64,000 bases of DNA from an uncultured Rhizobiaceae group bacterium (lineage in GTDB: Bacteria > Pseudomonadota > Alphaproteobacteria > Rhizobiales > Rhizobiaceae), in contig CANMVS010000006.1 of assembly GCA_947501445.1 (NCBI GenBank), forward strand, positions 186,001-250,000. Direction: 5' to 3'. The translations under genes were made by a program, and so were the position numbers. The number at the start of each line of letters is the position of its first letter. Within the stretch, counting starts at the first letter, position 1. Shown piece by piece: positions 31,669 to 63,187 of this stretch. Below the pieces are notes generated by a model. That model ran no database searches. It was not told the origin of the DNA and worked only from the letters and a program-made list of their open reading frames with translations.

Positions 31669-32485
31669 CCCATTGTATTCAATCTGTGACTTGAAGTTGT
31701 CTTTGCCGGATATGGCACGCAAACCACTCTTTGGTCCGGCCCCGAAAATCGAGATATTAAAGGGGCTGAGTTTCGAACTGCCGCGAAATGCGATTACCGG
31801 CATTGTCGGTGAATCCGGTTCCGGCAAATCAACCCTGGGGCGCGCGATGGTCCGTCTGCTGGAACCCACCCATGGTTCGATCAGTTTTGACGGAGACGAT
31901 CTGACGCATCTGACAGAATCGGCACTGAAACCCTATCGCCGCGACCTGCAGATGATATTTCAGGACCCGATGTCTTCGCTCAATCCACGCCGGACAATTG
32001 CAGACATTATCGCTGCGCCTTTGCGGCAATATGGTTTGGTTGACAATCTCCCGCAACAGATAGCGCAGGCATTGGATCGGGTCGGCTTACCGCAAAGTTT
32101 CGCATCACGATACCGCCACGAACTTTCTGGCGGTCAACGCCAAAGGGTTGGTATTGCCCGCGCGCTTGCACTTTCGCCGAAATTCGTTCTGGCCGATGAA
32201 ATTGTGTCAGGCCTTGATGTCTCCACCCAGGCGCAAATCCTCGCGCTGCTTGACCAACTGTGCAGGCAGATGGGGCTGACGATTGCCTTCATCAGCCATG
32301 ATCTTTCCGTCATACGCCGATTGTGCGAGCAGGTGATTGTCCTGCGCAGTGGTGAAATTGTTGAAATGGGCAATACATCCGATGTTTTTGATGCGCCCCG
32401 GCATGACTATACCCGAGAGCTAATTGCAGCCATTCCGCTGCCTGAACCGGATACACATTGGCTTGATATGGAGACCGTGGGCTAG
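31661..32485 (+). CDS. ABC transporter ATP-binding protein, DppF type
   Basis: A 274-residue second ATPase: Walker [10 protein letters not shown], signature [13 protein letters not shown], Walker [13 protein letters not shown] and H-loop ISHDLSV. Start at TTG 31661 ([13 protein letters not shown]), with GGAGAAG upstream and an 8-base overlap with the previous gene; the longer open frame from 31481 is spurious. Its TAG stop (32483-32485) lies inside the left end of a repeat element, so the element supplies the terminator codon. Confidence 0.9.
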
Positions 32486-32586
32486 AGCGTTTCACGTTTT
32501 GTCAGAAACGGGACAATGGTGCCGGCCTTTGATTTTGTTGATGCATTCATGTTTTGCCGATTCCGTCAAAACATGAATTGCTCTAG
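32482..32586 (+). repeat. Intergenic palindromic repeat, copy 1
   Basis: A 105-bp element with inverted ends CTAGAGC / GCTCTAG. From the left end: a small hairpin (CGTTTC with GAAACG), a linker containing CCTTTGATTTTGTTGATG, then a 12-bp perfect hairpin ATTCATGTTTTG / CAAAACATGAAT. In this copy the hairpin carries G-to-T and the paired C-to-A relative to the other copies, a compensatory change. The TAG in the left end is the stop codon of the ABC ATPase gene. Copies 2-5 are at 39092, 42055, 53656 and 63084. Confidence 0.9.
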
Positions 32587-32651
32587 AGAATGCCTCGCAT
32601 TTTGTCTGCGCAGTCTCATTTATCGGCAGCACCATTCGCAAAACATCTGCT

Positions 32652-32665
32652 TGATCAAATGATCA
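32652..32665. promoter_or_regulatory. Operator-like palindrome TGATCAAATGATCA (GntR site 1)
   Basis: TGATCA-AA-TGATCA lies 66 bp before the GntR-family start at 32731. The identical 14 bases occur at 34898-34911 before the kynureninase-like operon. Size and symmetry fit a GntR/FadR-type operator; the GntR protein is the likely binder. Confidence 0.6.
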
Positions 32666-32730
32666 TGCCGCTTGGTTGACAGGTGCCCTGATGAAAGAAT
32701 AGATGCTTTCAAAAATGAAGGACCATAAAA

Positions 32731-33459
32731 TTGGCTGCGGGATTCGAACCGATTGCTGAACGCACCACGGTGCAGGACAGCGTTTATCAACAATTGCGTC
32801 ACGCGCTGATGGTGGGGCGATTTGATCCGGCACAGGTACTAACGATCGCGTCGCTCTCAAAAGCATTCGGCACCAGTAATATGCCGGTGCGCGAGGCGCT
32901 GCGCCGGCTGGCGGCGGAAAACGCGCTGGAAATTGCACAAAACGGATCGGCCCGTGTACCCATTGTCACCCGGGCTCGCCTTGATGATCTGTGCCGTGCC
33001 CGCATTGCAGTAGAGGGTCTGGCCACCGAACTTGGGGCACCCCGGCTTTCGACCCTGGATATCCAGACACTTGAGCAGATCATGACGGATCAAAAGAATA
33101 TCGGTCGTGACGATAGTATCTATGAATTGATCGCCAAGAATCAGGCGTTTCATTTCACCATTTATCGCGCCTCGGGTTCGGAGGTACTGTTTCAACTGAT
33201 TGAAACTTTGTGGCTAAGATATGGCCCTTATATGCGGCTTCTTTCAACCCATGTGGAACCATCAATGCGCGCCGGCACAATGGAACCATCCGGCAGGCAT
33301 CAGGCCATCATCGATGCGTTAAAGGACCGGGACTTCACCAGGGTCCGCGATGAACTTGTTGCAGATATCGAAGCGACCAAACAAACGCTGAGCGTGATCT
33401 GCCCCACTGATGCCGGTATCAAGGCCGTTGATTTTTCCAGTTTTGGCAAAGCGTCCTGA
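32731..33459 (+). CDS. GntR-family regulator, FCD (FadR-type) domain
   Basis: A 242-residue regulator with an N-terminal winged helix-turn-helix (about 10-75; TIASLSKAFGTSNMPVREALRRL) and an all-helical FCD ligand domain with a metal-binding style HFTIYRAS and GRHQAIIDAL. TTG start with AAGGA upstream. It follows the ABC operon and repeat copy 1. Two copies of TGATCAAATGATCA, one in its own promoter and one before the gene at 34931, suggest autoregulation and control of the kynureninase-like/amino-acid-transport operon. Confidence 0.87.
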   Translation: MAAGFEPIAERTTVQDSVYQQLRHALMVGRFDPAQVLTIASLSKAFGTSNMPVREALRRLAAENALEIAQNGSARVPIVTRARLDDLCRARIAVEGLATELGAPRLSTLDIQTLEQIMTDQKNIGRDDSIYELIAKNQAFHFTIYRASGSEVLFQLIETLWLRYGPYMRLLSTHVEPSMRAGTMEPSGRHQAIIDALKDRDFTRVRDELVADIEATKQTLSVICPTDAGIKAVDFSSFGKAS

Positions 33460-33487
33460 TCCAGGTCCTGTTCGGAAAAAATCCGGT

Positions 33488-33652
33488 TTACGATACACGA
33501 CGGAATAAACGCGCACCGACAGCCTGCACCAACCAGTAGGTCCTGCGGCTGAGGGCAGAATCCAGCCAATTGTCCCCGGTACCTGTGTGCATGCTCTCAT
33601 GATGTGGACGATAATCCGGGCGAATATGACTGGTAAAGGAATAGGGGTTCAT
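33488..33652 (-). CDS. Small hypothetical protein, 54 residues
   Basis: An ATG at 33652 is preceded by AAGGAG at 7 bases, one of the best ribosome binding sites in the window, and opens a 54-residue frame beginning MNPYSFTSHIRPDYRPHH and ending in a basic, aromatic tail (LVQAVGARLFRRVS). No family recognised, no signal peptide or obvious membrane span. It is divergent from the GcvA-like LysR gene at 33833, a layout in which the regulator often controls the small gene. The longer frame from 33715 has no ribosome binding site. Confidence 0.55.
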   Translation of the reverse strand: MNPYSFTSHIRPDYRPHHESMHTGTGDNWLDSALSRRTYWLVQAVGARLFRRVS

Positions 33653-33773
33653 GACAATTCTCCTTATCTGGCACGCTTCGTGAACAACCAGCTTTGCCAA
33701 TGAATTCCAAGGCACATTAGAAAACCGATGGTGTAATTATTACTTGGCCTAATCTATCGACCAGCCCTTGGTA

Positions 33774-33816
33774 TTGACAAACGAAAACTCCTCAGGGGAT
33801 ACTTTAGATTATCTAA
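33774..33816 (+). promoter_or_regulatory. Promoter and palindrome before the GcvA-like LysR gene
   Basis: TTGACA (33774-33779) and GATACT (33798-33803) with 18-bp spacing make a sigma-70-like promoter. Overlapping its downstream edge is a perfect palindrome TTAGAT-T-ATCTAA (33804-33816), well placed for autorepression by the LysR protein. GGAGG precedes the start codon. Confidence 0.5.
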
Positions 33817-33832
33817 CTTATGGAGGTGTCCG

Positions 33833-34762
33833 ATGCGATCTGCCTTACCGCCCTTGAACGCACTGCGCGCCTTTGAAGCTGCCGGGCGGCTTGGCAGTAT
33901 GAACGCAGCCGCCGATGAACTCTCGGTAACCCCGGCAGCGATCAGCCATCAGATAAAGACCCTGGAGGAACACTTCGGTTTCGCGCTGTTTTATCGCGAT
34001 ATCCGTGCCATTCGATTGACCGATCGCGGCACAGCGCTGTTGCCCTATCTCACAGACGGCATGAGCCTTTGGAAACAGGGCTGCAACAAAGTGGCGTCAT
34101 TTGATGATGACACCCCGCTGGTCATTTCATCTGCACCTGTCTTTGCCGGCAAATGGCTGGTGCGCCGATTGGCGGATTTCAATGCGATACACCCGGACAT
34201 CACTGTGCGCCTTGATGGCTCATTGTCCATCGCCAATTTTGCTGGTGATGGCGTGGATGCCGCCGTTCGTTTTGGCGCTGGCCCCTACTCTTCATTACAT
34301 GCCGAACAACTGGTCAACGAGGACGTGACGCCGGTCTGTTCACCCGCATTGCTGGACGACGAACACCCATTGCTCAGCCCGAAAGATCTGGCATACCACA
34401 CCCTTATCCATGTGGACTGGCTTGCGGCGGCCGGTATGCAGCCCGATTGGAGCATGTGGCTTAAAACGGCCGGTGCCGGTGATATCGATTGCAGTGGCGG
34501 CCCCGTATTGACCAGCGATTCACTTGCCGTTGAGGCAGCACTCAGCGGTGGTGGCGTGGCGCTTGTCAGTGAATTTCTGGTCAGGCAGGACCTCGAGGCC
34601 GGACGTCTTATAAAGCCATTTGATCTGGTGCTGCCGTCGAACCATTGGTACTGGTTTGTCTGTCCCCATGAAAACATGAACCAGCGCAAGGTGCGCGCCT
34701 TTCGCGATTGGCTAGTGACTGCGGTGAGAGAATGTCCGGCGATTGGTGACGCCGCGTTTTAG
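33833..34762 (+). CDS. LysR-family regulator, GcvA-like
   Basis: A 309-residue regulator. The N-terminal RSALPPLNALRAFEAAGRLG and VTPAAISHQIKTLEEHFG are typical of the GcvA/AmpR-like branch; the rest is a substrate-binding-like effector domain (about 90-300). GGAGG ribosome binding site. It is divergent from the 54-residue gene and upstream of the kynureninase-like operon, though that operon has a different operator (34897). Target unknown. Confidence 0.87.
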   Translation: MRSALPPLNALRAFEAAGRLGSMNAAADELSVTPAAISHQIKTLEEHFGFALFYRDIRAIRLTDRGTALLPYLTDGMSLWKQGCNKVASFDDDTPLVISSAPVFAGKWLVRRLADFNAIHPDITVRLDGSLSIANFAGDGVDAAVRFGAGPYSSLHAEQLVNEDVTPVCSPALLDDEHPLLSPKDLAYHTLIHVDWLAAAGMQPDWSMWLKTAGAGDIDCSGGPVLTSDSLAVEAALSGGGVALVSEFLVRQDLEAGRLIKPFDLVLPSNHWYWFVCPHENMNQRKVRAFRDWLVTAVRECPAIGDAAF

Positions 34763-34896
34763 ATCGCTTCAATGCAAATTCACATAACCATGCTGTGCCA
34801 GCCAGGCGTTCATATTCGTGCGCGCGAAAATTGGAACCAATCTGGTGAAATACGCGTCAATTTGAATGCCCGCCGTGTTGATTTGAATTCCCGTTT

Positions 34897-34912
34897 GTGA
34901 TCAAATGATCAC
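34897..34912. promoter_or_regulatory. Operator-like palindrome GTGATCA-AA-TGATCAC (GntR site 2)
   Basis: A perfect 7-bp inverted repeat with an AA spacer, 19 bp before the start of the kynureninase-like gene, in a place where binding would block transcription or initiation. Its inner 14 bases are identical to 32652-32665 before the GntR gene. Confidence 0.65.
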
Positions 34913-34930
34913 AACATTAAAAGGATCCTC

Positions 34931-36070
34931 ATGTCTGGCTATTTTCTCTACCATTCCATTGGCACCTATCACGGCAAATCAGAACAGATGGCTGAGGAAC
35001 TTGGCCGATTTTCAAGCATGTGGTCGGCTGAAGATGACGGACAATGGCCGGCAGCACTGCAGGCACGCCACCGCTTCATTGAAAGCTGGTCACAGCTGAT
35101 TGACGCGCCAGCAAATTCATTGACCACGACCGAAAACGTGACGACAGCACTCTACAGCATCATGGGCTCGTTGCCGCTGGAGCGGATCAGGGGGCAGCGA
35201 TTTCTCATTGCTGCGGATTGTTTTCCCAGCCTGCATTTTTTGCTGAATAAACTGGCTGATCGGTTTGGCTTCACACTCGACACAGTTTCCATGCGTCCTG
35301 GAGAAACCTGGGTGCGGGACGAAGATTTCATTGACCGCTGGCAGGATGATGTCGGCATCGCACTGCTGACGTTTGTCACCTCAACAGCCTCACATCGCTG
35401 CGATATTGATGTGCTGACGGCCCATGGTCGGCGTATGGGCACCATCATTGGCGCCGATATAACGCAAGGGATTGGTGTTCAGCCCTTTTCGGTTGCAATC
35501 ACGCCTGTGGATTTTGTCATTTCTACATCATTGAAATGGCTTTGCGGGACGCCGGGTGCCGGTATCTTGCAGGTTTCACCTGATCTGATGGCCGATTGCG
35601 CGCCAGAGTTGCGCGGTTGGTTCAGTCAGGAAAATCCATTTTCCTGGGATCTGGAACGCTTTGCCTATGCACCTGATATCCGTCGGTTTGACCACGGCAC
35701 ACCGTCAATCCTTTCAAATATCGCATCACAGCCCGGGCTCGACTGGGTCGCCAGAACCGGCATTGATGCCATACAGGCGCAAAACCTTGTGCTGACGCAA
35801 CGTATTATTGATTGGGCACGCGACCATGATTGGGCAATGGCCTCGCCGGTGGCAGCCTCATCGCGCGGCGGCAGTGTCATGTTGAACCTGCCTGAAACAG
35901 TGAATGTTGAGCATTTACTATCTCAATTGCGTGCGCAGGAACTCTATTGCGATGCACGTGGGCATAGGCTGCGCATTTCACCGGGCATGGTGACGGATGT
36001 TGGTGCAGTCGACAGCCTTTGCAGGCAGTTGGACCAACTGGTTGATTGGAGGGAGAAAAAAGCCTCCTGA
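34931..36070 (+). CDS. Class V PLP enzyme, kynureninase-like
   Basis: A 379-residue fold-type I PLP enzyme. The PLP lysine is in STSLKWLCGTPGAG (about residue 206), and the upstream cofactor aspartate in GADITQGIGVQPF; ENVTTALYSIMGSLP forms the phosphate-binding N-terminal part. Overall pattern is nearest to kynureninase and related class V hydrolases/aminotransferases, but key kynureninase residues cannot be confirmed by eye. First gene of an operon with an amino-acid binding protein, a permease and a second class V enzyme, so it probably acts on the imported amino acid. Operator at 34897 suggests GntR control. Confidence 0.75.
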   Translation: MSGYFLYHSIGTYHGKSEQMAEELGRFSSMWSAEDDGQWPAALQARHRFIESWSQLIDAPANSLTTTENVTTALYSIMGSLPLERIRGQRFLIAADCFPSLHFLLNKLADRFGFTLDTVSMRPGETWVRDEDFIDRWQDDVGIALLTFVTSTASHRCDIDVLTAHGRRMGTIIGADITQGIGVQPFSVAITPVDFVISTSLKWLCGTPGAGILQVSPDLMADCAPELRGWFSQENPFSWDLERFAYAPDIRRFDHGTPSILSNIASQPGLDWVARTGIDAIQAQNLVLTQRIIDWARDHDWAMASPVAASSRGGSVMLNLPETVNVEHLLSQLRAQELYCDARGHRLRISPGMVTDVGAVDSLCRQLDQLVDWREKKAS

Positions 36071-36176
36071 AAACAGGTGTTTGTCAGCCTCGAGTAAAAC
36101 ATATCGTTTCATTTTGAGCCGAGACAACCACCGACAAGGACTACACAAAGTAGCAGTAAAACGAAGGGAAACAGAT

Positions 36177-36968
36177 ATGAAACGTCATTTGGGACTATTG
36201 GCAGCAATTGTTGCCGGGAGTATTGCGTTTGCAGCACCGGCTTTTGCAGATTCCATTGTTTTGGGTGCCTATCCGGCAAATCCCCCGTGGGAATACAAGA
36301 CGGACAATGGAGACTTTGAAGGTTTCGAGGTTGATGTTGCACGCGAAGTTGCAAAACGTCTGGACATGGATCTTGAAATTCAGGATCTGGGTTTTCAGGC
36401 ACTGTTCGCGGCAACTCTGTCCGGTCGCATTGATTTCGCCGTATCCTCAATATCCATCACCAATGATCGCCTGCAAAATCAGTCCTTTACACAGCCCTAT
36501 TATGACAGTGACGGAACGGTTGTCGGCAAGGCGGATTCAAAGGTTGAGACTCTGGAGGACCTCAAGGGCAAGACGATTGGTGTCGTTGCCGGTACGACCG
36601 GTGAAAAATGGGCGAAGGAAAACAAGGACAAATACGGCATTGCCGATGTCAAAAGCTACAATGCCCAGCAGGATCTGTTGCTTGATGTGCAAAACGGCCG
36701 CATCGAAGGCGGAACCGGCGAGATTGCGGGATTTCAATATGCGATGACCAAGATACCTGGTCTTAAAATTCTGGTGCGCATTCCGACCGGCGAGCGCTTT
36801 GCGATGATGACAAAAAAGAACCATCCGCTGGTGGAAAAAGCCAATCAGGCTGTCTCCGATATGAAGGCAGATGGCACCATGGCCGCCATCCACAAGAAGT
36901 GGTTTGGTGTTGATCCGGATGCCGGCACCAGCACCGTAACAGCGATGCCACTGCCAACTGCGCAGTAA
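36177..36968 (+). CDS. Amino-acid ABC transporter substrate-binding protein (family 3)
   Basis: A 263-residue periplasmic protein: signal peptide MKRHLGLLAAIVAGSIAFA with cleavage near residue 24 (AFA-DS), then a type 3 solute-binding domain with YPANPPWEYKTDNGDFEGFEVD and LKGKTIGVVAGTTGEKW. The ATG at 36177 is preceded by AAGGGAAA; the open frame from 35997 overlaps the previous gene and is spurious. Followed by a terminator-like hairpin, then the permease. Ligand expected to be an amino acid or derivative, presumably the substrate of the two PLP enzymes. Confidence 0.9.
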   Translation: MKRHLGLLAAIVAGSIAFAAPAFADSIVLGAYPANPPWEYKTDNGDFEGFEVDVAREVAKRLDMDLEIQDLGFQALFAATLSGRIDFAVSSISITNDRLQNQSFTQPYYDSDGTVVGKADSKVETLEDLKGKTIGVVAGTTGEKWAKENKDKYGIADVKSYNAQQDLLLDVQNGRIEGGTGEIAGFQYAMTKIPGLKILVRIPTGERFAMMTKKNHPLVEKANQAVSDMKADGTMAAIHKKWFGVDPDAGTSTVTAMPLPTAQ

Positions 36969-36978
36969 ATTTCTTTCC

Positions 36979-37011
36979 GGCGCTGGTGCGAAAGCTCCAG
37001 CGCCTGTTTTT
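36979..37011 (+). terminator. Terminator-like hairpin after the binding-protein gene
   Basis: GGCGCTGG (36979-36986) pairs with CCAGCGCC (36997-37004), 10-base loop, followed by TGTTTTT. It would reduce transcription into the permease gene, giving excess receptor, as often seen in ABC importers. Confidence 0.65.
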
Positions 37012-37100
37012 ATCGGGCCGCAACGCCGGTCACAGCAATATTCTCATTGTAGCTGGCCATTCTTGTGAATGCCACGCGAACCCCAGCACGGGCATACCCC

Positions 37101-37775
37101 ATGGAACTCATCAATACATTCTTCAATGGCGAGATCCTGTTGCGATCTTTCCCAATATTATTGCGCGGTCTGCAAAATACGATTTTACTCGGATGTGTCA
37201 GCATTATTTTTGGCAGTCTGGCGGGCCTGTTCATCTGTCTCATGCGGCTCTATGGTCCGCGCCCGGTGCGCCTGATCGCGATATTTTACATCGATGTTTT
37301 CCGTGCCTTGCCCATATTGGTCATCCTGATTCTGATTTACTATGCCCTGCCCTTTCTTGGCATTCGATTTTCCTCCTTCACATCGGCAGCGCTGGCACTT
37401 TCCCTGGTCCTGGCAGCCTTCACAGCCGAAGTCTGTCGCGCCGGCATTGAGAATATTCCCCGCGGTCAATTTGAAGCCGCCGAGGCACTTGGGCTGCCCT
37501 TTTGGATAGCCCTTCGCAAGATCATCTTACCGCAGGCCATAAAGGTCGTTATTCCTCCAATCACCAGCAACTGTGTGTCCGTCTACAAGGATACGGCCCT
37601 TGCATCCGTGGTTGCCATGCCGGATTTGCTGAAACAGGCAACAGACGCACAGGCCATGATGGCCAATCCAACGCCATTGATTGGCGCTGCCATCATCTAT
37701 CTTGCCTTCCTGTGGCCGCTCGTCCGGCTGGTCAGCTTTCTGGAAGAGCGCAGCAAAAAACAACAAACAGCCTGA
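37101..37775 (+). CDS. Amino-acid ABC transporter permease (HisM/GlnP type)
   Basis: About 224 residues, five hydrophobic spans, starting MELINTFFNGEILLRSFP; the EAA loop is EAAEALGLPFWIALRKIILPQAI. A GTG start 12 codons upstream is also possible; neither has a strong ribosome binding site. It pairs with the receptor at 36177. No ATP-binding protein and no second permease lie in the operon, so it probably works as a homodimer with an ATPase encoded elsewhere. Confidence 0.87.
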   Translation: MELINTFFNGEILLRSFPILLRGLQNTILLGCVSIIFGSLAGLFICLMRLYGPRPVRLIAIFYIDVFRALPILVILILIYYALPFLGIRFSSFTSAALALSLVLAAFTAEVCRAGIENIPRGQFEAAEALGLPFWIALRKIILPQAIKVVIPPITSNCVSVYKDTALASVVAMPDLLKQATDAQAMMANPTPLIGAAIIYLAFLWPLVRLVSFLEERSKKQQTA

Positions 37776-37817
37776 TCAGGCCAATAAATTCACTGCCCCT
37801 GTGCAGAAAGTCACGTC

Positions 37818-39095
37818 ATGAACCAGATTAGCCACGCAGACAGCACGCAAGCCGAACCCTTTCCGATTGATCGTGTCAGAGAACAGTTTCCGGCGCTGCA
37901 GCAGGCAGGCGATTTCATATTCCTTGACAACGCTGCCGGCGCGCAGGTTCCACAATGCGTTCTGGATGCCGTACAAACCCATCTGATTGAGTTCAATGTT
38001 CAACGTGGCGGCCGCTATGACCGCAGCCTGCGGGTTGATACGGCCATGGATGAAGCAAGAACAAGCACTGCCCTGCTGATCAACGCCAGCAACCCGGCAG
38101 AAATCTGTTTTGGCATGAATGCCACCAGCTTCATCAGACTTGTCAGCCTTGGCATTGCCCAGATGCTGGATGAGCGCGATGAAATCGTCGTTACGGATAT
38201 GGACCATGATGCCAATATTGCCACCTGGACAGCCCTTGAGAACATGGGAGCCAAAATTGTCTGGTGGCGCATGCGCGACGACGGCAACCTGAATGTTGCG
38301 GATCTGCGTCCGCTTGTTTGCGAACGCACACGGTTGGTGGCCTGTACGGTAGCCGCACACGCACTGGGGTCAATCGTTGACGTAGCCGGTGTCGCCGCCA
38401 TAGCCCATGAAGCAGGCGCTGAAGTATTTCTTGATTGCGTTCACTATGGCCCCCATGCCCTGATGGATGTCCAGGCATGGGACTGTGACTATCTTGTGTG
38501 CTCCGGTTACAAGAATTTTTCTCCGCATATGGGTTTCCTATGGGGGCGTTTTGATGCACTCAAACAGCTGCCAACATTTCGTGAGGAATTCATTCCGGAT
38601 GAACCGCCTTACAAAGTGGAAGCTGGCACATTCATCTATGAGAATGTTTCCGGTCTTAATGCCGCCATTGGCTATCTGGAATCCATCGGCAGGGATTTCC
38701 TGCCACATAACAATAAAACCCGCCGCGAGAACATCGTCAGCGGCATGCAACGCATACGAACCTATGAGAAACAATTGGCAGCGCATATGCTGAACGTTCT
38801 CAAGGACAATGGTGCAACCATCTATGGCATCAGCGAGGCGGAGCGTATCGACCAGCGCGTACCGACGTTCTGTTTCAATATCGCAGACCTGTCGCCACAA
38901 AAGGTGGTCGAGGAAATGGCCCATGCGCAGATCGGTATCCGCGATGGACATATGTACGCCCCCAGACTGATGAAGCGTCTTGGCCTCAGCATGGACCGGG
39001 GTGCAATTCGGGTTTCGCTGCTCCACTACAATACGACGGACGAAATCGATCGCTTCGATGAGGCGTTGAAAAAGATAATTATCAAACTCAGCTAG
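37818..39095 (+). CDS. Class V aminotransferase family, cysteine desulfurase-like
   Basis: A 425-residue fold-type I PLP enzyme with [17 protein letters not shown] at the N-terminus, cofactor aspartate in [11 protein letters not shown] and Schiff-base lysine in [13 protein letters not shown] (about residue 235). It belongs to the cysteine-desulfurase-like subgroup that often lacks the mobile loop cysteine of IscS/SufS, so C-S lyase, deaminase or amine-transfer activity on the imported amino acid is as likely as true desulfuration. Last gene of the operon. Its TAG stop (39093-39095) is part of repeat copy 2. Confidence 0.78.
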
Positions 39096-39196
39096 ACCAT
39101 TTCACGTTTTGTCAGAAACGGGACAACGGTGCCGGCCTTTGATTTTGTTGATGCATTCAGGTTTTGCCGATTCCGTCTAAACCTGAATTGCTCTGA
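39092..39196 (+). repeat. Intergenic palindromic repeat, copy 2
   Basis: Same element as 32482: left end CTAGACC followed by TTTCACGTTTTGTCAG, the linker CCTTTGATTTTGTTGATG and the hairpin ATTCAGGTTTTG / TAAACCTGAAT with one mismatch, right end GCTCTGAG. It fills the whole gap between the convergent genes ending at 39095 and 39199; its left TAG is the stop codon of the plus-strand gene. Confidence 0.9.
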
Positions 39197-39198
39197 GG

Positions 39199-41865: not shown

Positions 41866-42054
41866 TTGCCCCTCCAATCAGGCCTGTGTGAGCATCACAT
41901 AACCGATACCTCCCCCGATACGCCATAGGTCAATCGGACAGATTGGTGATTTTATCGATTGAAATTCAAATGATTGGCTCATTACGGGCCAATCAGCCCT
42001 CGCATCACCTCCAACAGGTACAGCAGGGGGCATTCCGGCGGTATCGCGTGGGCA

Positions 42055-42159
42055 TTAGAGCAATTCAGGTTTTGATGGAATCGGCAAAACCTGAATGCGT
42101 CAACAAAATCAAAGGCCAACACCGTTATCCCGTTTCTGACAAAACGTGAAACGGTCTAG
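42055..42159 (-). repeat. Intergenic palindromic repeat, copy 3
   Basis: Same element, on the minus strand: CTAGACC end at 42159 and TTAGAGC end at 42055, with hairpin ATTCAGGTTTTG / CAAAACCTGAAT perfect over 12 bp. It sits between the DUF3179 gene and ppdK, both on the minus strand. The TAG of its CTAGACC end is the stop codon (42156-42158) of the DUF3179 gene. The adjoining stretch to 41866 holds the ppdK leader only. Confidence 0.9.
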
Positions 42160-43547: not shown

Positions 43548-43664
43548 GGTGGCAGGTTCCTTCGATGGCTGTAGTCCAACTATACAGGAATAAAATCCGT
43601 GAAAATGTCGCCTCACTGCTATGTGTAGCAAGTTGATCCGCTGTGCAGCGCACCGTGCGGGCGA

Positions 43665-50443: not shown

Positions 50444-50458
50444 CGTAAATGATCAGGA

Positions 50459-51205: not shown

Positions 51206-51315
51206 ACAGTTGACCTTTCTCGTCGATCAGGTTTGCGATGACAATTCCAATGCGATTGTTAACCGCTCAATTGTGGCAGAACAACCGTTTTGCCCGGATG
51301 ATTATCACAAGATGG

Positions 51316-51810: not shown

Positions 51811-51920
51811 GGGGGTCGATTGTCCTGTGAATTATTATCGAAAAGTCCAACCACGTGTTGCCATGGCCGTATTGAAGCTTACAACTCGGTGCCTGATGCC
51901 GCAATGTAAAAGCAGGTGCC

Positions 51921-53638: not shown

Positions 53639-53655
53639 TGGGTTGTGAACATCCA

Positions 53656-53761
53656 TTGGAACACTTCAGGTTTTAACGAAATCGACAAAACCTGAACGCA
53701 TCAACAAAAATCAAAGACCGACACCGTTGTCCGGTTTCTGATCAAACGTGAAACGGTCTGG
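53656..53761 (-). repeat. Intergenic palindromic repeat, copy 4
   Basis: The most diverged of the plus CTAG-type copies: ends CCAGACC (minus strand, 53761) and TTGGAAC (53656), hairpin TTCAGGTTTTG / TAAAACCTGAA, linker CTTTGATTTTTGTTGATG with one extra T. It lies between the convergent HAD and ccrM genes and does not overlap a stop codon. Confidence 0.85.
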
Positions 53762-53780
53762 CCACCGGCACATGTCATTG

Positions 53781-55057
<1,277 letters not shown>

Positions 55058-55140
55058 TTACACCCTGCGCCATTGTGCAGGCCCGGTGCTTGGTGTATTT
55101 GCCCGGAGAATTTTTTCCTCATTCACCTCAGGACAAGTCC

Positions 55141-55827: not shown

Positions 55828-55865
55828 TTCACATCACGCCAGTTAAGTTTTCGTCTGATCCGGGT

Positions 55866-56435
55866 TCAGCTTTTTTTGCCGGGACCTTCGTCAAAACCAA
55901 CAAATATCCTGACTGAGCGCGACGCGGTTATCGGAATAACCACATCCGGCTTGTTAAACAGGAACTGTGTTGTTGGATTGCCCTCGGGAAGTGATGTTTC
56001 AAACTGTGTCAGTTCCGAAAAAATCACCTCGTTGGAGCCTTTTTCAAGCACCGCAACACGAATAGGCAACTTCAAAGGGCCGGCTTTTCCTGCCGGGCCA
56101 GCCAATACACGACCTGCAACAACGACATTGATGGTCAGTTGATCACCGGTAACACTGCATTGACGGGTCGAGTCGGAAATGGATGCCTGATAGGTCACCT
56201 TTTCCCGGTCATCTTCCCCACCACGTGCATATTTGGTGAAATTGGCTGTTCCATCACGCAGTTCAACACGAGGGCAAGAACCCTGTACCACCTTGGCGCC
56301 AAGTTTGGGATCAACATCAGTCTGTTGTTTTTTCTGACCCAGATTGAGTCCGCCAACACCCGAAGAGCTACAACCTGCAACAACGGCTGCAAGTGACAAA
56401 AATACTAAAATACGAACCGAATTCACCGACAACAC
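55866..56435 (-). CDS. Hypothetical lipoprotein
   Basis: A 189-residue protein with a lipoprotein signal (VRILVFLSLAAVVAGC, lipidated Cys22) and a mature domain rich in beta-strand-like segments (GTANFTKYARGGEDDREKVTYQ, TINVVVAGRVLAGPAGKAG, SVRIFVGFDEGPGKK). No enzyme motif. Similar small lipoproteins are conserved beside thrC in related genomes by my recollection, but no function is known to me. Divergent from thrC. Confidence 0.7.
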   Translation of the reverse strand: MLSVNSVRILVFLSLAAVVAGCSSSGVGGLNLGQKKQQTDVDPKLGAKVVQGSCPRVELRDGTANFTKYARGGEDDREKVTYQASISDSTRQCSVTGDQLTINVVVAGRVLAGPAGKAGPLKLPIRVAVLEKGSNEVIFSELTQFETSLPEGNPTTQFLFNKPDVVIPITASRSVRIFVGFDEGPGKKS

Positions 56436-56608
56436 ACCCCGTCCCTAACGATCTTGAATAGCCAGACAAGCTAGAAGCCAAGCTGGACCTTTTTGTGGTA
56501 GCCCAATTTCTGGTCTTTAACGAGTCATTTCGATGTTCTATACCAGCGCGGCAATTCTTCACAACTCCCCAGGCAAATTCGCTGCGGGAAGCACACAGGA
56601 TCAGTCCC

Positions 56609-58006
56609 TTGCAATATGTCTCCACCAGAGGTCAGGCACCCGAGCTCGGTTTCAGTGATGCACTCCTGACCGGCCTTGCCCGCGACGGCGGTCTGTATCT
56701 GCCGGCACAGTGGCCACAATTTTCCAAAAAAGAAATTCGGGCGATGCGCGGCAAATCCTATCAGGACATCGCCTTTCAGATTCTCCTTCCTTTTGTCGAG
56801 GGCGATATAGAGGCTGATGCATTCAAAACAATGATTGACGAAGCCTATGGTACCTTCCGCCATCCGGCGGTTACCCCATTGGTTCAGACAGGCGAGAACA
56901 GTTTTATTCTGGAGCTGTTCCACGGGCCGACACTGGCCTTCAAGGATGTTGCAATGCAATTGCTGTCCCGTCTGATGGACCATGTATTGCGACAGCGCGA
57001 CCAAAGAGCAACCATTGTGGGCGCGACTTCAGGTGACACCGGTGGCGCTGCTGTCGACGCCTTTGCCGGGCGCGACAACACCGATGTGTTCATTCTGTTT
57101 CCTCATAATCGGGTTTCACCGGTGCAACAGCGGCAAATGACCACGTCGGGTGCGGCCAACGTAAAGGCCCTGGCACTGGAGGGAAATTTTGACGATTGCC
57201 AGAACCTGGTGAAAGCCATGTTCAATGACCCGTCATTTCGCGACAAAGTGCAATTGTCAGGGGTCAATTCGATCAACTGGGCACGAATTATGGCTCAGAT
57301 TGTTTACTATTTCACCAGTGCGATTTCCCTTGGTGCCCCTGATCGCAAAGTTTCATTCACCGTACCTACCGGCAATTTCGGCGACATATTTGCAGGTTAC
57401 TGTGCCAAATGCATGGGACTGCCAATTGAAAAGCTTGTCGTTGCAACCAACGACAATGATATTCTTGCCCGAACATTACGCACGGGTCGCTATGAAATGC
57501 GTTCTGTTGTGGCCACAACCTCACCGTCGATGGACATACAGATATCGTCCAACTTTGAGCGCCTTCTGTCGGAATGTCATGACCGCAATTCAGATCAGGT
57601 GCGGCTTTATATGTCAGGCCTAACCCAGTCCGGCGCATTTACGATTGAGCCCGGTGCATTGAAGATGATGCGCAAACATTTTACTGCCGGCAAAGCTACT
57701 CAGAAGCAAACGGCGCAGGCAATTGCTACAATGGTTGAGCAAACGGGCTACGTTCTTGACCCACATACAGCCGCGGGTATTCATGTTTCACAACGTTTTG
57801 AAAAACCGCGCAGCCCCATGATAACACTGGCGACAGCCCATCCCGCCAAGTTTCCGCAAGCGGTTAATTCAGCCTGCGGTATTGACCCCGCCCTCCCGTC
57901 GTGGCTCTGTGATCTTATGGATCGGGAGGAGACATTTGAAATATTGCAGCCTGAACTCAATATAGTTGAGACATACATTGCCCGAAATGCACGTGCTGCA
58001 AATTGA
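56609..58006 (+). CDS. thrC: Threonine synthase
   Basis: A 465-residue PLP enzyme converting O-phosphohomoserine to threonine. Family parts: N-terminal QYVSTRGQAPELGFSDALL, PLP lysine in LAFKDVAMQLL, ATSGDTGGAAVDAFAG and TVPTGNFGDIFAGY. The TTG at 56609 gives the usual N-terminus and has AGGA at 9 bases; the longer frame from 56495 has no family similarity. Stop overlaps a possible upstream TTG of the peptidase gene, so the two are co-transcribed. Confidence 0.93.
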   Translation: MQYVSTRGQAPELGFSDALLTGLARDGGLYLPAQWPQFSKKEIRAMRGKSYQDIAFQILLPFVEGDIEADAFKTMIDEAYGTFRHPAVTPLVQTGENSFILELFHGPTLAFKDVAMQLLSRLMDHVLRQRDQRATIVGATSGDTGGAAVDAFAGRDNTDVFILFPHNRVSPVQQRQMTTSGAANVKALALEGNFDDCQNLVKAMFNDPSFRDKVQLSGVNSINWARIMAQIVYYFTSAISLGAPDRKVSFTVPTGNFGDIFAGYCAKCMGLPIEKLVVATNDNDILARTLRTGRYEMRSVVATTSPSMDIQISSNFERLLSECHDRNSDQVRLYMSGLTQSGAFTIEPGALKMMRKHFTAGKATQKQTAQAIATMVEQTGYVLDPHTAAGIHVSQRFEKPRSPMITLATAHPAKFPQAVNSACGIDPALPSWLCDLMDREETFEILQPELNIVETYIARNARAAN

Positions 58007-58020
58007 AATCGGAATCCAAT

Positions 58021-59316
58021 ATGAGTGTTGAGTGTACCCAGCTTCCAAGCGGGTTGACTGTAGTAACCGAGAATATGCCTCACCTTGAGAGCGCTGCTCT
58101 TGGTGTCTGGATCAAATCCGGGTCGCGTGATGAAACCGAAAACGAACACGGCATAGCCCATCTGCTGGAACATATGGCTTTCAAGGGAACGGCAATACGG
58201 ACCGCCAGACAAATTGCCGAGGAAATTGAAAATGTCGGCGGTGAAGTCAATGCTGCCACGTCCATCGAGACAACATCCTATTATGCCCGCGTGTTGAAAG
58301 ATCACGTACCCCTGGCGATCGATATTCTGGCGGACATATTGACAAATTCTGTCCTGGATGAAGCCGAGCTGCATCGTGAAAAACACGTGATATTGCAGGA
58401 AATCGGCGCTGCGATCGATACGCCGGATGATGTTGTTTTTGACAAATTTTCCGCAACAGCGTTTCGCGACCAGACGATTGGCCGTTCAATTCTGGGCACG
58501 CCTGAAACGGTTCAGTCGTTTACACCGCAGCAAATCCGAAGTTATCTCAATCGCAACTACACAGCCGACAAAATGATCATTGTGGCTGCAGGTGCCGTCG
58601 ATCATGATTCACTCGTGCGCCTTGTCGAGGATCGTTTTGCCGGAATACCGGCAACGACAGACAATCCACTGCCTATCGTTGAAGCCGCCTATAGTGGTGG
58701 TGAATATCGCGAAAAACGCGATCTCATGGACGTGCAATTGCTGATCGGTTTTGAAGGGCGCGCCTATCACGCACGTGATTTTTACGCTTCCCAGATTTTG
58801 GCAAATGTGCTTGGCGGCGGCATGTCATCGCGGCTGTTTCAGGAAGTGCGCGAACATCGGGGCCTGTGTTATTCGGTCTATGCATTGCACTGGGGTTTTT
58901 CGGATACGGGCGTTTTCGGCATTCACGCTGCGACGGGCCAGGAAGACATACCTGAACTTGTTCCGGTTATTCTCAACGAGTTGCACAGGGTTGCCGAAAA
59001 TGTTGATGAATCCGAAATCGAAAGAGCCCGCGCTCAAATTCGCGCCGGACTGCTGATGGCCCATGAAAGCCCGGCAGCACGCGCCAGTCAGGTAGCACGT
59101 CAGATGCTGCTCTACGGCCGCCCTATTCCAAATGACGAACTGATGGATCGGCTCTCCAACATCACACCGCACCGATTGACCGATTTGTCCTCAAGGTTGT
59201 TTTTCGATTCTCCGGTTACCTTGTCAGCCGTCGGCCCCTTGGACAGCCTGATGCCTTTGACAGAATTGGAAGCAGGCCTTTCAGTCAATGCAGCACGCAA
59301 TCGCGCAGCCAGCTAG
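58021..59316 (+). CDS. M16-family zinc peptidase (mitochondrial-processing-peptidase-like)
   Basis: A 431-residue pitrilysin-type peptidase with the inverted zinc motif HLLEH (HGIAHLLEHMAFKG, about 45-60) and the distal glutamate in LDEAELHREKHVILQEI; the second half is the inactive-lobe domain (RGLCYSVYALHWGF). It resembles the M16B peptidases regularly found downstream of thrC in Alphaproteobacteria. ATG at 58021 preceded by GGAAT. Likely processes small or misfolded peptides. Confidence 0.9.
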   Translation: MSVECTQLPSGLTVVTENMPHLESAALGVWIKSGSRDETENEHGIAHLLEHMAFKGTAIRTARQIAEEIENVGGEVNAATSIETTSYYARVLKDHVPLAIDILADILTNSVLDEAELHREKHVILQEIGAAIDTPDDVVFDKFSATAFRDQTIGRSILGTPETVQSFTPQQIRSYLNRNYTADKMIIVAAGAVDHDSLVRLVEDRFAGIPATTDNPLPIVEAAYSGGEYREKRDLMDVQLLIGFEGRAYHARDFYASQILANVLGGGMSSRLFQEVREHRGLCYSVYALHWGFSDTGVFGIHAATGQEDIPELVPVILNELHRVAENVDESEIERARAQIRAGLLMAHESPAARASQVARQMLLYGRPIPNDELMDRLSNITPHRLTDLSSRLFFDSPVTLSAVGPLDSLMPLTELEAGLSVNAARNRAAS

Positions 59317-59406
59317 CAATGTAAATTCCGGCTGATGCATCATGGTCGGATCAACGTGGAAAATTGGTCCGGCATCGCAACTCTGATTCTTGACAGACAC
59401 CAGACC

Positions 59407-60021
59407 ATGTCACCACTTCGACTTCTTTCCAGACGAGAACCGGTACTGCGCCTTGATGGTGACGCGGTCTATTTGCGTTTGCCGAAAAAAAGTGACTACA
59501 AAATTTGGGCCAATGTTCGCGCGACCAGTAAGCGTTTTCTGGAACCGTGGGAGCCAAGCTGGCCGGTCGATGATCTCACCCGGCGTTCATTTCTCAGCAG
59601 AATACAGCGCTATGAGCATGATTTTCAGGATGGGAAGGCCGTACCGCTTTTTCTGTTTCTTGCGGACACCGACCAATTGGTTGGCGGCCTGAATATCAGC
59701 AACATTCGCCGGGCGGCGGCTCAAAGCTGCATGATTGGCTACTGGATGGCTGAAGAAAATGCCGGAAAAGGACTGATGCTGGCTGGATTACGCGCCGCAA
59801 TTCCCTATATCTTTCAAACCTTGCGGTTGCACAGAATTGAAGCTGCTTGTATTCCAGATAACGAACGTTCGGTTCGACTCCTTGAAAAGGCCCATTTCAG
59901 GCACGAGGGCTATCTGAGAGGTTACCTGAAAATAAATGGCAAGTGGCGCGATCATCATCTCTATGCATTGTTGTCTTCTGACAATACCGAAGACGACAGC
60001 CACTCAAAGCCTCGTCAGTAA
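59407..60021 (+). CDS. GNAT-family N-acetyltransferase, RimJ/RimL type
   Basis: About 204 residues with the RimJ-like start LRLDGDAVYLRLPKKSDYKIW and the acetyl-CoA-binding core MIGYWMAEENAGKGLMLAGLRA, ending LHRIEAACIPDNERSVRLLEKAHF. The open frame reaches 59335, but the family-like N-terminus begins near the ATG at 59407; no strong ribosome binding site helps decide. Members acetylate ribosomal protein N-termini or other amines. Third gene of the thrC cluster. Confidence 0.87.
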   Translation: MSPLRLLSRREPVLRLDGDAVYLRLPKKSDYKIWANVRATSKRFLEPWEPSWPVDDLTRRSFLSRIQRYEHDFQDGKAVPLFLFLADTDQLVGGLNISNIRRAAAQSCMIGYWMAEENAGKGLMLAGLRAAIPYIFQTLRLHRIEAACIPDNERSVRLLEKAHFRHEGYLRGYLKINGKWRDHHLYALLSSDNTEDDSHSKPRQ

Positions 60022-60029
60022 CCTGGAAC

Positions 60030-62939
60030 ATGAATAACCACATGCACGGATCTTTCAATCGAAACACTCACTATGTGCGCCAGACCCTCGTCGGTCTGAT
60101 CGCGATGGTGATGCTCATTGTTTGCGCTGCTGCGACATTTGCTGCCGAGCCGGTTCGTATTTCGCGAGACGACACAGCCCTTGATCTGACAGCAACAACT
60201 GAAGTCTATTCCCAGCGCGGGGATGCTTTTCAAACGTCTACCGCACCGGATGCAGACGGCATTGTCAGGCGAATTGAAATTCGTGCCAGCACAGGCAACC
60301 ATAGTGGGGACTGGGCGGTTTTTGCTCTGGCCAATGTTTCTGATGAACAATTGGACCGATTGATCGTGGCGCCGCATTTTCGGCTTGTCAGTTCCGGACT
60401 CTTATGGCCGGATCTTGGATCAGAACGGATTATCTCGATTACACCCAGTGAAGGCTTTGCGCTGGACCGTGTTCCCAGTGACGAGGCTGATGTCTTTCAC
60501 ATCACACTCAATCCCGGTGCCATTGTCACCTTTGTCGCCGAGCTCACGTCGCCCGAGTTGCCACAGATTTATCTATGGGAACCCGAGGCCTATAAGGACA
60601 CTGTCAACTCATTCACATTGTACAAAGGCATCGTGCTCGGTATTGCCGGGCTTCTTGCCGTCTTTTTAACCATCCTGTTTGTCGTCAAGGGAACCTCTGT
60701 CCTGCCGGCTACGGCGGCACTGGCCTGGGCGGTATTGGCTTATATATGCGTTGATTTTGGCTTTCTTTCCAAACTGGTGAGCACAACGCCCACTGATGAA
60801 CGAATATGGCGTGCGGGTACGGAAATAACACTTGCCGCCGGGCTGGTGATTTTTCTGTTCACCTATCTCAACCTTAACCGTTGGCACACGAACCTGAGTT
60901 TTGCGACACTGGCCTGGATCGTCGGATTGGCCATATTGTCGGGTGTTGCGGTTTACGATCCGGCAATAGCAACGGGTATTGCGCGTATCTCATTTGCCGC
61001 AACCGTCATCGCTGGTACCGGCCTTATAGCCTATCTCGGCTTTAATCGTTTTGACCGGGCGATCATGTTGATCCCGACATGGGTTTTGATCATCTGTTGG
61101 CTGTTTGGTGCCTGGCTGACGGTAACCGGCCAGTTGGCCAATGATATTGTCCAGCCTGCTCTTGGCGGAGGGCTTGTACTGATTGTTCTGTTGATCGGGT
61201 TTACGGTCATGCAGCATGCCTTTGCCGGCGGCGCGCATCACAATGGACTTTTCAGCGACCTTGAACGTCAGTCACTGGCATTGACCGGTTCCGGAGACAT
61301 TGTTTGGGACTGGGACGTGCCTCGCGACCGCATCGTGACAATGCCTGATGTGAGCAAGCAGTTGGGGCTTTCGCCCGGCAGTTTGTTTGGTCCTGCCCGT
61401 AACTGGGTGCCGCGTATACATCCGGATGACCGCGATCGTTTCCGCGCGACGCTCGATGTGGTGCTTGAACACCGCCGCGGCCGTATCAATCACCAGTTCA
61501 GAATACGTGCCGAGGACGGCCACTATCACTGGCTTGCCTTGCGTGCGAGACCGGTTGTTGGTTCGGATGGTGAAGTCATCCGTTGTGTGGGCACACTCAT
61601 TGATGTGACCGAGCAGAAAAGTTCGGAAGAACGATTGCTGCATGATGCGGTTCACGACAATCTGACAGGCCTGCCAAATCGTGAATTGTTCGTTGACCGT
61701 CTGGACGCAATCATCGCACTTGCAAGTGCGGAAGATGCAGTGCGACCAACCATCTTCGCAATCGACATAGATCGTTTTAAACACGTCAATGACGAGCTTG
61801 GCATATCGGCCGGCGATACCATACTGCTCACTATCGCCCGTCGCCTGAAACGCCTGCTGAAGCCACAGGATACATTGGCGCGCATCAGCGGCGATCAATT
61901 TGGTTTGATTCTGCTCTCGGAACAGGAGCCTGCGAAAGTTGCAACATTTGCCGAGAACATCAACAAGGCCATCATGGTGCCGATTAATTTTGGCCAGAGG
62001 GAAATTATCCTGACAGCCAGTATCGGGCTGGTGACCTGGGTGGATGAAATGTCTTCGCCGCTTGAACTGGTCAAGGATGCCGAATTGGCCATGTATCAGG
62101 CCAAACGCGTTGGCGGCAACAGGATCGAGCCGTACCGCCCGGCATTTCGGGCATCTGGCGCTGACAGGCTGCAGATCGAATCGGATCTGCGCCGCGCTCT
62201 GGAACGCAAAGAGCTGACGATGGTTTACCAGCCGATTGTTGATATCGAAAGTGCGGAAATTGCCGGTTTCGAAGCGCTGATGCGCTGGGAGCACCCGCGA
62301 AAGGGCAATATTCCACCATCAGAATTTATTCCGGTTGCGGAAAGTTCTGACCTGATCATGGAACTGGGCATGTATGCCCTGCATCAGGCCTGTGAAGACA
62401 TAGCGTCCTGGTACCGGGCACTTGGACAGATTCCGGTATTCATGTCGGTCAATCTTTCAAGCGCTCAACTGCTGCGCAATGACTTGTATTCGGATATTCG
62501 CTCCGTCTTGACGAAGACCGGATGCAAAGCGCAGACGCTGAAGCTTGAACTGACAGAATCCGTCGTGATGCATAATCCGGAGCAGGCAGCGCGGGTATTG
62601 GCACGCCTGAAGGATCTGGGCATACAATTGGCGCTTGATGATTTTGGAACCGGACATTCCTCGCTGTCCTATCTGACGCGTTTTCCCTTTGACACCATCA
62701 AGATCGATCAAACGCTGGTGCGTGCGACCAACGAGAAACAGCTTGTCCTGCTCAGGTCAATCATTGCCATGGCACGCGATCTGGAAATGAATGTTGTGGC
62801 CGAAGGTGTCGAGACCGAAGAGGATGCCGAAGAACTGGCTGATCTGGGTTGTGATTATGCACAGAGCTTTCTCTTCGGACCTCCGATCGGCCCGACATCA
62901 GCACTTAAACTGCTGCGTGAACATTTCCCGCTGATGTAA
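60030..62939 (+). CDS. Membrane-bound PAS-GGDEF-EAL protein, likely c-di-GMP phosphodiesterase
   Basis: A 969-residue protein: N-terminal hydrophobic/signal segment (about 17-38), a periplasmic 7TMR-DISMED2-like region, about seven membrane spans (190-400), a PAS domain (about 415-525, WDWDVPRDRIVTMPDVSKQLG), a GGDEF domain (about 540-690) and an EAL domain (about 715-965). The GGDEF signature at about 618-622 reads SGDQF, so cyclase activity is probably lost, while the EAL motif (EALMRW), ELTES and DDFGTGHSSLSYL are intact, favouring c-di-GMP hydrolysis. Start could be the ATG at 60030 or 60042. Confidence 0.9.
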   Translation: MNNHMHGSFNRNTHYVRQTLVGLIAMVMLIVCAAATFAAEPVRISRDDTALDLTATTEVYSQRGDAFQTSTAPDADGIVRRIEIRASTGNHSGDWAVFALANVSDEQLDRLIVAPHFRLVSSGLLWPDLGSERIISITPSEGFALDRVPSDEADVFHITLNPGAIVTFVAELTSPELPQIYLWEPEAYKDTVNSFTLYKGIVLGIAGLLAVFLTILFVVKGTSVLPATAALAWAVLAYICVDFGFLSKLVSTTPTDERIWRAGTEITLAAGLVIFLFTYLNLNRWHTNLSFATLAWIVGLAILSGVAVYDPAIATGIARISFAATVIAGTGLIAYLGFNRFDRAIMLIPTWVLIICWLFGAWLTVTGQLANDIVQPALGGGLVLIVLLIGFTVMQHAFAGGAHHNGLFSDLERQSLALTGSGDIVWDWDVPRDRIVTMPDVSKQLGLSPGSLFGPARNWVPRIHPDDRDRFRATLDVVLEHRRGRINHQFRIRAEDGHYHWLALRARPVVGSDGEVIRCVGTLIDVTEQKSSEERLLHDAVHDNLTGLPNRELFVDRLDAIIALASAEDAVRPTIFAIDIDRFKHVNDELGISAGDTILLTIARRLKRLLKPQDTLARISGDQFGLILLSEQEPAKVATFAENINKAIMVPINFGQREIILTASIGLVTWVDEMSSPLELVKDAELAMYQAKRVGGNRIEPYRPAFRASGADRLQIESDLRRALERKELTMVYQPIVDIESAEIAGFEALMRWEHPRKGNIPPSEFIPVAESSDLIMELGMYALHQACEDIASWYRALGQIPVFMSVNLSSAQLLRNDLYSDIRSVLTKTGCKAQTLKLELTESVVMHNPEQAARVLARLKDLGIQLALDDFGTGHSSLSYLTRFPFDTIKIDQTLVRATNEKQLVLLRSIIAMARDLEMNVVAEGVETEEDAEELADLGCDYAQSFLFGPPIGPTSALKLLREHFPLM

Positions 62940-63083
62940 GTTTCAGGTTTGCAAATGAGGTGGCACAGCAGTAGTTGACCAATCTGGCACGAAGGTCAAA
63001 TACCTCGAATTCCAAACGTTTAATTTATTCTTACAGCCTATCCCGAAATGCTTGCATTTATACTTATGTAATATTACTGTTTA
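62940..63083. other. Gene-free AT-rich stretch
   Basis: Between the GGDEF-EAL gene and repeat copy 5. I see no open frame with a ribosome binding site, no terminator with a T tract and no recognisable RNA. Confidence 0.6.
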
Positions 63084-63187
63084 CTGGACTGCCTCAGGTT
63101 TTGTCAGAAATGGGACAACGGTGTCCGTATTTGAGTTTGTTGATGCATTCAGGGTTTGCCGATTCCGACAAAACCTGAATTGCTCTA
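63084..63187 (+). repeat. Intergenic palindromic repeat, copy 5
   Basis: Diverged copy: left end CTGGACT, then CTCAGGTTTTGTCAGAAA, linker TTTGAGTTTGTTGATG and hairpin ATTCAGGGTTTG / CAAAACCTGAAT, right end TGCTCTA. It lies in the 349-bp gap between the GGDEF-EAL gene and the MbtH gene, not touching a stop codon. The remaining stretch to 63288 holds only the MbtH leader. Confidence 0.85.

Follow-up and report, generated by a model that had tools for sequence, protein, structure and literature searches.

What is the short two-hairpin repeat that recurs between the genes of a rhizobial genome, and does it behave as a mobile element or as a functional part of its host? The question is raised by the window, i.e., the whole stretch of 64,000 nucleotides analyzed here (GenBank assembly GCA_947501445.1, contig CANMVS010000006.1, positions 186,001 to 250,000, from an uncultured Rhizobiaceae bacterium), which contains five copies of an approximately 105-bp repeat. 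We conclude that the family to which they belong is probably a miniature inverted-repeat transposable element (MITE), a non-autonomous mini-transposon bounded by terminal inverted repeats (TIRs), or behaves as one, and that it targets TA. It has TIRs, a target site duplication, no internal transposase, and a high copy number, but a transposase-bearing relative with the same ends was not found. A non-autonomous MITE was among the comparisons drawn in the original prediction, which had been made from the sequence alone, and the TA target, the TA on both sides, and the congener sites without the element agree with it. The copies and their parts are as follows (ORF, open reading frame).

32482-32586, plus strand: copy 1, 105 bp long, laid out as CTAG-hairpin-linker-hairpin-CTAG with an intact TA at each end, 122.8 bits
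32483-32484, no strand: copy 1, left TA of the duplication; with the G at 32485 (first core base) it forms the TAG stop of the ABC-transporter ATPase ORF 31481-32485
32485-32583, plus strand: copy 1, core of 99 bp (TIRs 20/27 in the family consensus)
32487-32511, plus strand: copy 1, left hairpin (consensus CCGTTT/AAACGG, GCGTTT in copy 1)
32512-32542, plus strand: copy 1, linker
32543-32581, plus strand: copy 1, right (long) hairpin with arms ATTCATGTTTTG/CAAAACATGAAT
32559-32563, plus strand: copy 1, GATTC in the right-hairpin loop, a GANTC (CcrM) site
32584-32585, no strand: copy 1, right TA of the duplication
39092-39196, plus strand: copy 2; TAG at 39093-39095 is the stop of the cysteine-desulfurase-like ORF 37818-39095; right TA changed to TG
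42055-42159, minus strand: copy 3; TAG at 42158-42156 (minus) is the stop of the DUF3179 ORF 43631-42156
53656-53761, minus strand: copy 4, 106 bp long, with CA in place of TA on both sides; it lies some 70 bp downstream of the CcrM-like methyltransferase ORF 53831-55057 (minus)
63084-63188, plus strand: copy 5, with a diverged left arm and TG instead of the left TA

All five copies proved real, both on rereading of the window sequence and with a covariance model built from them (R1), in which they score 108.6 to 126.9 bits (E of 7.1e-25 or better) and copy 5 ends at 63188. Five extra R1 matches in the window (E of 0.0017 to 0.013), which lie on the opposite strand over the same copies or beside copy 5 (63140-63249), reflect the palindromes. 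The inverted ends, the CGTTTC/GAAACG hairpin, the TTTGATTTTGTTGATG linker, and the 12-bp hairpin are as originally described. The consensus of 138 copies of 105 nt from this genome reads C-TA-(99-bp core)-TA-G, in which the core starts GACCGTTTCACGTTTTGTCAGAAACGG and the opposite end, read inwards, is GAGCAATTCAGGTTTTGACGGAATCGG; the element ends are TA-GACCGTTTCAC and GAGCAATTC, with a core start of GACCG. The 27-bp imperfect TIRs are identical at 20 of 27 positions, a figure equaled by 0 of 20,000 mononucleotide shuffles, and each folds on itself, these being the two hairpins. In the predicted RNA folds of some window copies, both element ends instead pair together.

The family is large. In the source genome (G000; 110 contigs totaling 6.82 Mb, with the window at C6:186001-250000), a 20-base pattern of the core, allowing at most two mismatches, was found at 392 places, against 1 for the same pattern written backwards, and R1 matched all 150 scored candidates, out of 2,937 first-look candidates, at E of 1.2e-20 or better. 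An unbiased sample of five stretches taken regardless of score (1.264 Mb, window included) held 110 full copies (32, 5, 13, 26, and 34 per stretch), which extrapolates to roughly 600 per genome and bears out the earlier expectation of hundreds. Since profile matches in 464 kb (C1:1-400000 plus the window) numbered 59 against 0 in the same DNA reversed, and since every scored candidate matched, the copies are not due to chance. Two further sets are used below: 143 distinct copies of this genome, mostly high-scoring, of which 138 have 105 nt, and an earlier unbiased set of 37 copies from the 464 kb, 29 of them 105 nt long. No element of greater length with these ends was seen among the fetched loci, which yielded just truncated copies and a single short deletion derivative (L004:1605-1649); this derivative is about 44 bp long, has one hairpin made from both ends, and stands directly behind a full copy. 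The TA duplication, the insertions in stop codons, the GANTC loop, and the patchy distribution in the genus had all escaped the original prediction.

Insertion is at Y-TA-R, and many copies have TA on both sides. In the 143-copy set, the outer left base is Y in 134 and the outer right base R in 116, the first core base is G in 137 and the last core base C in 131, and TA is present on the left in 84 and on the right in 89; both sides carry it in 58 of 138 copies.

Sites without the element point the same way. At a gene that we take, from its C-terminus, to be pstB-like, the sequence shown for seven congeners continues without the element, and the flanks joined with one TA align across the junction in 6 of the 7 (73 to 79%, about 300 bp); the locus is thus an empty site, albeit one at which the TA is not seen, the right TA of the filled copy being gone. 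At a sugar-binding-protein-like locus, the joined flanks span the junction in four congeners (blastn, 73 to 76%), which have TAA at the codon of the element, and the copy in the source genome has TA on both sides. A near-precise empty allele was found only for a sister family of rhizobial plasmids, type C, for which a plasmid of Rhizobium leguminosarum (CP022667) is filled and one of R. ruizarguesonis (CP140831) is empty: the TA is double in the filled and single in the empty allele, and the stop of an ABC-transporter gene is the TAG of the element in the former and TAA in the latter. For window copies 2 and 3, no empty site was readable, the congener spacers being too diverged.

To place the element relative to genes, the latter were taken as greedy ORFs of at least 100 codons, without a gene finder. 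Three of the five window copies lie in stop codons, with ORFs 31481-32485, 37818-39095, and 43631-42156 ending in TA plus the core G; as the core starts with G in both orientations, the stop reads TAG either way. In the 143-copy set, 44 gene ends (at 42 copies) fall exactly at the element TA and 0 at -3 to -1. We considered special targeting of stop codons as the cause of this spike and rejected it, because there is no preference per YTAR site. In the 1.264 Mb, 74 gene ends have an element within 60 bp (33 in the stop codon, 40 at 4 to 60 bp beyond it, and 1 elsewhere), and 936 element-free gene ends offer 183 YTAR sites at the stop and 169 at 4 to 60 bp; the use of 33:40 against an availability of 183:169 gives a Fisher p of 0.31. 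Stop codons are used at the same per-site rate as other YTAR sites. Smaller or cruder nulls for the stop codons gave 36:41 and 10/37 at 63/423 (p of 0.04). Landing at YTAR with a rebuilt stop thus explains the hugging of gene ends without a regulatory role. It also matters for annotation: 33 of the 216 YTAR stop codons in the sample (33 with an element and 183 without) carry the repeat, which supplies the stop codon of 33 of about 1,010 counted gene ends (936 plus 74).

A mobile element of this kind would need a driver. IS711 of Brucella is an 842-bp insertion sequence (IS) that, as described in PMC2266754, PMC3163539, and PMC10800456, uses a YTAR target and duplicates TA, and IS5-family copies are present in our source genome. 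One of them, an 843-bp IS (L228, G000:C2, approximately 146253-147095) with ends GGGCC(T/C)GTGGACATT and a transposase that matches as two overlapping pieces, has inserted into the CTAG at the end of an element and is flanked by a duplicated TA. The two have different ends, and the insertion shows a shared target taste rather than that this transposase moves the element. At L227 (G000:C40), a degenerate 550-bp IS5-family copy abuts an element end, with a second element, oppositely oriented, about 0.8 kb farther on; two other IS5-family loci checked in the same genome have no element. A candidate IS end, the motif CTAGAGCAATTC beside an IS5 fragment in congener G006, was not borne out. A driver may have been lost, and we limit our claim to the statement that the element works like a MITE.

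A different answer to the question of the driver alone would be that the MITE depends on an IS630/Tc1-type transposase and not on one of IS5 type. The TA target is common to both, and the pneumococcal RUP, 107 bp long, is thought to be IS630-driven according to its treatment in PMC2229807. We consider this doubtful: the IS630 profile DDE_3 had no match in the source genome, the only one searched for such a driver (which could have been lost); as a control, the same profile gave matches in 3 of 14 genomes.

A more radical departure would be a REP-like element moved on single-stranded DNA by a Y1 (RAYT) transposase. Repetitive extragenic palindromes (REPs) are typically small palindromic repeats at gene 3' ends, as these are, and duplication of TA is a trait of double-strand DDE transposition, which the present elements fit better. 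The single match of the Y1_Tnp profile in the source genome is weak and contains an internal stop; the other loaded genome of the genus (G002) has none, and the six others have 0 to 7. In G000:C1:1-400000, 26 copies lie on the minus and 6 on the plus strand, an orientation excess such as REPs might show; it is absent in the other four stretches, and of the 110 copies, 60 are oriented in agreement with the sign of the local GC skew (p of 0.39). A link of orientation to replication was therefore dropped as confined to one 400-kb stretch of five, and the REP-like reading retains a very slim chance.

Several observations weigh against the view that the family is a TA-targeting MITE. Movement was not observed, and we infer it from the target, the duplication, and the empty sites. 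A full-length, transposase-bearing relative with the same ends, the search for which had been proposed with the original prediction, was found neither with DDE_3 nor at 34 IS5-type loci of the genus (L227-L260, covering 30 of 50 IS5-type matches). The details of the empty-site loci slightly lowered our confidence: the pstB-like gene ends with TGA and not TAR in the seven congeners, and the copy there lacks the right TA; the base before the TAA of the congeners at the sugar-binding-protein-like locus is A or G and not Y; and the type C empty site is TTAC and not YTAR, with nearby bases that differ. The congeners are about 74% alike in DNA, which makes the empty sites of the family itself approximate. 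Seven of the 110 unbiased copies lie inside an ORF. Lastly, 80 of 138 copies lack at least one of their two TA. Because 74 of these 80 differ between left and right, we take the loss as decay of a duplicated TA and not as the trace of a different target sequence. The TA positions of the 29 unbiased copies of 105 nt are off consensus in 21 to 31%, against 9.2% inside the element, and the rarity of CTAG in the 464 kb (105 occurrences against 282 expected from trinucleotides) may speed this decay.

With these points weighed, we favor the following course of events for a TA-targeting MITE. The element would have been moved in trans by a DDE transposase, perhaps one of an IS5-family type using YTAR like IS711, and one or two near-identical sources would have given rise to a burst of copies. 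Insertions in genes and promoters would have been purged, and those at gene ends, being near neutral, would have stayed. On landing at a YTAR stop, TA plus the core G would rebuild the stop as TAG, and after landing the ends and the loop would decay.

The distribution of the family is consistent with a recent burst. Core matches in eight genomes of the genus number 392 and 122 in the two loaded ones and 0 or 1 in the other six, in which R1 has no match. The family being large and loaded in only two of eight genomes, it is probably recent. Scans with a further model, R2, gave matches in 15 of 297 genomes (12 of 109 genera) across the family Rhizobiaceae and in 7 of 297 genomes (5 of 123 genera) across the order; with 13 candidates scored per genome, the absences are approximate. 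Presence in related genomes, put forward earlier as a check, therefore holds for the second loaded congener and for relatives in other genera, but not for most of the genus. A subfamily B occurs in Hoeflea sp. SAT27 (G138), among others, and weak R2 matches are sister families, i.e., type C, type D (with RIME1-like ends), and others. Type C was found at 2,494 places in 507 plasmid records of Rhizobium, Sinorhizobium, Shinella, Agrobacterium, and others. It shares with our family the ends CTAGAGC...GCTCTAG, a length of 105 to 106 bp, two hairpins, and, in the one allele pair, a TA duplication in a stop codon; unlike our family, it has no GANTC in the two elements checked, and it is missed by our consensus with blastn at 1e-5 and reached by R2 only, at E of 9e-5 to 5e-4. 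The consensus of our family had no blastn match in the plasmid collection (1e-5), which holds S. meliloti records, or in phages (E of 1), the subfamily B consensus had none in the plasmids (E of 1), and a search of viral contigs with an exact pattern gave no match.

Could the hairpins nevertheless serve the host as RNA, as a bidirectional 3'-end structure that ends, protects, or separates the transcripts of convergent genes? Of the 110 unbiased copies, 102 lie between ORFs and 1 is unclassified, and the convergent spacers are richest: 43 copies in 185 convergent, 49 in 515 tandem, and 10 in 191 divergent spacers. (The 37-copy set has 19 convergent, 14 tandem, 2 divergent, and 2 inside ORFs; the 143-copy set has 52, 66, 14, and 2, with 9 unclassified.) The purging of promoter insertions explains this context equally well, and stop-codon and downstream sites are used alike. 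The RNA-fold z-scores of the five window copies are -1.2 to -4.9, but copies 2 and 3, the two scanned, gave no terminator-like call.

Covariation of the stems bears on the same question. In an alignment of 36 chosen sequences from five genomes (A2), with 22 named pairs tested, the pairs are formed in 96.8% of cells against 93.3% in shuffles, double-change cells number 25 against 6.0 (standard deviation of 2.0), in four adjoining long-stem pairs, and the covariation score is 0.137 against 0.071; the other two of the five measures, the count of pairs showing any double change (4 against 3.1) and that of additional pair types (17 against 16.0), do not exceed shuffles. Most of the stem changes fall between family A and subfamily B, and the pairing seems to have been kept over long times, holding between families but weakly within the genome. 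The paired change in the stem of copy 1 (CATG/CATG), from which it had been argued that the structure is selected or copied as a palindrome, is present, but that argument is not supported in the form given: among the 138 copies, the paired form occurs in 4, the change in the right arm only (left arm CAGG) in 23, and that in the left arm only in 1, and the paired change in copy 1 alone proves little. The A at position 92 (29 copies) is linked to no other common variant at p < 0.001, and it looks like the mark of a second source, one that spread with its pair broken.

The Rfam family RF02600 touches the RNA question as well. Below its threshold of 59.8, it gives 21 to 39 bits on type C, type D, the RIME1 spacer, and a G540 element (L183, L151:3388-3541, L295, L194, and L180), but it has no match at E of 0.5 to our own family (L001, L034); at gathering thresholds, Rfam has no match in the whole window. 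RF02600 is the Brucella small RNA CI27, confirmed by reverse transcription-PCR according to a review table, and the matches suggest that it was probably founded on a repeat of this class. With six of eight genus genomes doing without the element and one-armed stem variants common, an RNA function is unlikely to be what maintains these repeats.

The remaining functional proposal concerns DNA methylation. CcrM-associated intergenic repeats (CIRs) were reportedly described by Chen and Shapiro in 2003. As characterized in PMC2229807, they have two arms and a linker, with GANTC in the terminal loop, and that account leaves their mobility open. Our elements resemble them in their length of about 110 bp, two arms plus linker, loop GANTC, intergenic location, abundance, and alphaproteobacterial host, and could by analogy be epigenetic elements whose hairpins display GANTC to CcrM and which the genome retains for the control that methylation at gene ends would exert on transcription or replication. 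The consensus does have GATTC in the right-hairpin loop, as do, with GANTC, 5 of 14 other elements (two subfamily B, two type D, and one from G348). The window also holds a CcrM-like adenine methyltransferase gene (53831-55057, minus) beside copy 4, which scores 639 bits with NF050803, short of the cut-off of 830. The conservation that this proposal predicts is missing: of the 37 unbiased copies, 19 retain GANTC (104 of 143 in the high-scoring set). When 95 windows of equal shape are ranked by conservation, the site comes last in the 29 unbiased copies of 105 nt (0.48 against a mean of 0.71) and 86th in the 138 high-scoring ones, which argues against a role in methylation in this host. The fast change may be accounted for by the position in the loop alone, and strong selection keeping GANTC is unlikely. 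The genome, moreover, avoids the word (690 occurrences in the 464 kb against 1,807 expected by composition); CTAG and GANTC, both under-represented there, are the very words that a consensus copy brings in. Poor conservation, together with the TA target and the empty sites seen here, separates our family from CIRs as they are described. The epigenetic proposal is quite improbable.

The MITE-like family studied here takes its place beside other known repeats. The chvI-chvG spacer is, we presume, the type locality of RIME1, a repeat that we take to be 108 bp long, and RIME2 is a 109-bp element of NGR234 and S. meliloti. In the chvI-chvG spacer of S. meliloti Ak57, RIME1 consists of two nested palindromes in about 110 bp and has, by eye, a terminal TA on each side and a linker of the TTTGA type, but it has C after the TA, hence no TAG, and no GANTC. 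Identity with RIME1 was rejected, as there was no profile match in the spacer (the best in the locus, with E of 5.4, lies elsewhere in it); the two large palindromes are shared and the primary sequence differs, so RIME1 does not explain the family. The two-hairpin layout is nevertheless common to both, as had been proposed for RIME and Bru-RS.

Bru-RS1 and Bru-RS2, as described in PMC2266754, PMC3163539, and PMC10800456, are a palindromic pair of 103 to 106 bp and the landing place of IS711; IS711 in Bru-RS1 parallels the 843-bp IS in our element, Bru-RS being known to us by these descriptions. RUP, ERIC, and the Correia elements are small TA-targeted MITEs, but of other hosts and, according to their treatment in PMC2229807, with a stem formed by pairing of the 5' and 3' ends and not by two arms and a linker. 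Two-hairpin repeats of rhizobia and their relatives (RIME, Bru-RS, and CIR) have been listed since the 1990s, mostly as of unknown function in the account of PMC2573895. Searches of open-license literature showed nothing on this exact family and no name for type C, and we regard our family as a new member of the RIME/Bru-RS/CIR class. What is new is evidence at the level of mechanism (target, duplication, empty alleles, and stop rebuilding) and evidence against the methylation reading; the TA duplication, the empty sites, and the per-site rates give this class of repeats a testable mechanism. More speculatively, RIME, Bru-RS, CIR, type C, and our family might form one superfamily of YTAR mini-transposons, and the G found at both ends of most elements examined here would be an adaptation that rebuilds the stop in either orientation for harmless colonization of gene ends, an idea that we put forward tentatively and with clearly less than even confidence.

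Some relatives of the family depart from its usual form. In G157, an element of 141 bp (L189) has extra internal repeats in its left half. In the high-GC genome G348, which belongs to another family of the order, the right arm of the elements at L294 and L299 retains TTTTGCCGATTCCGTCAAAA despite a differing left arm.

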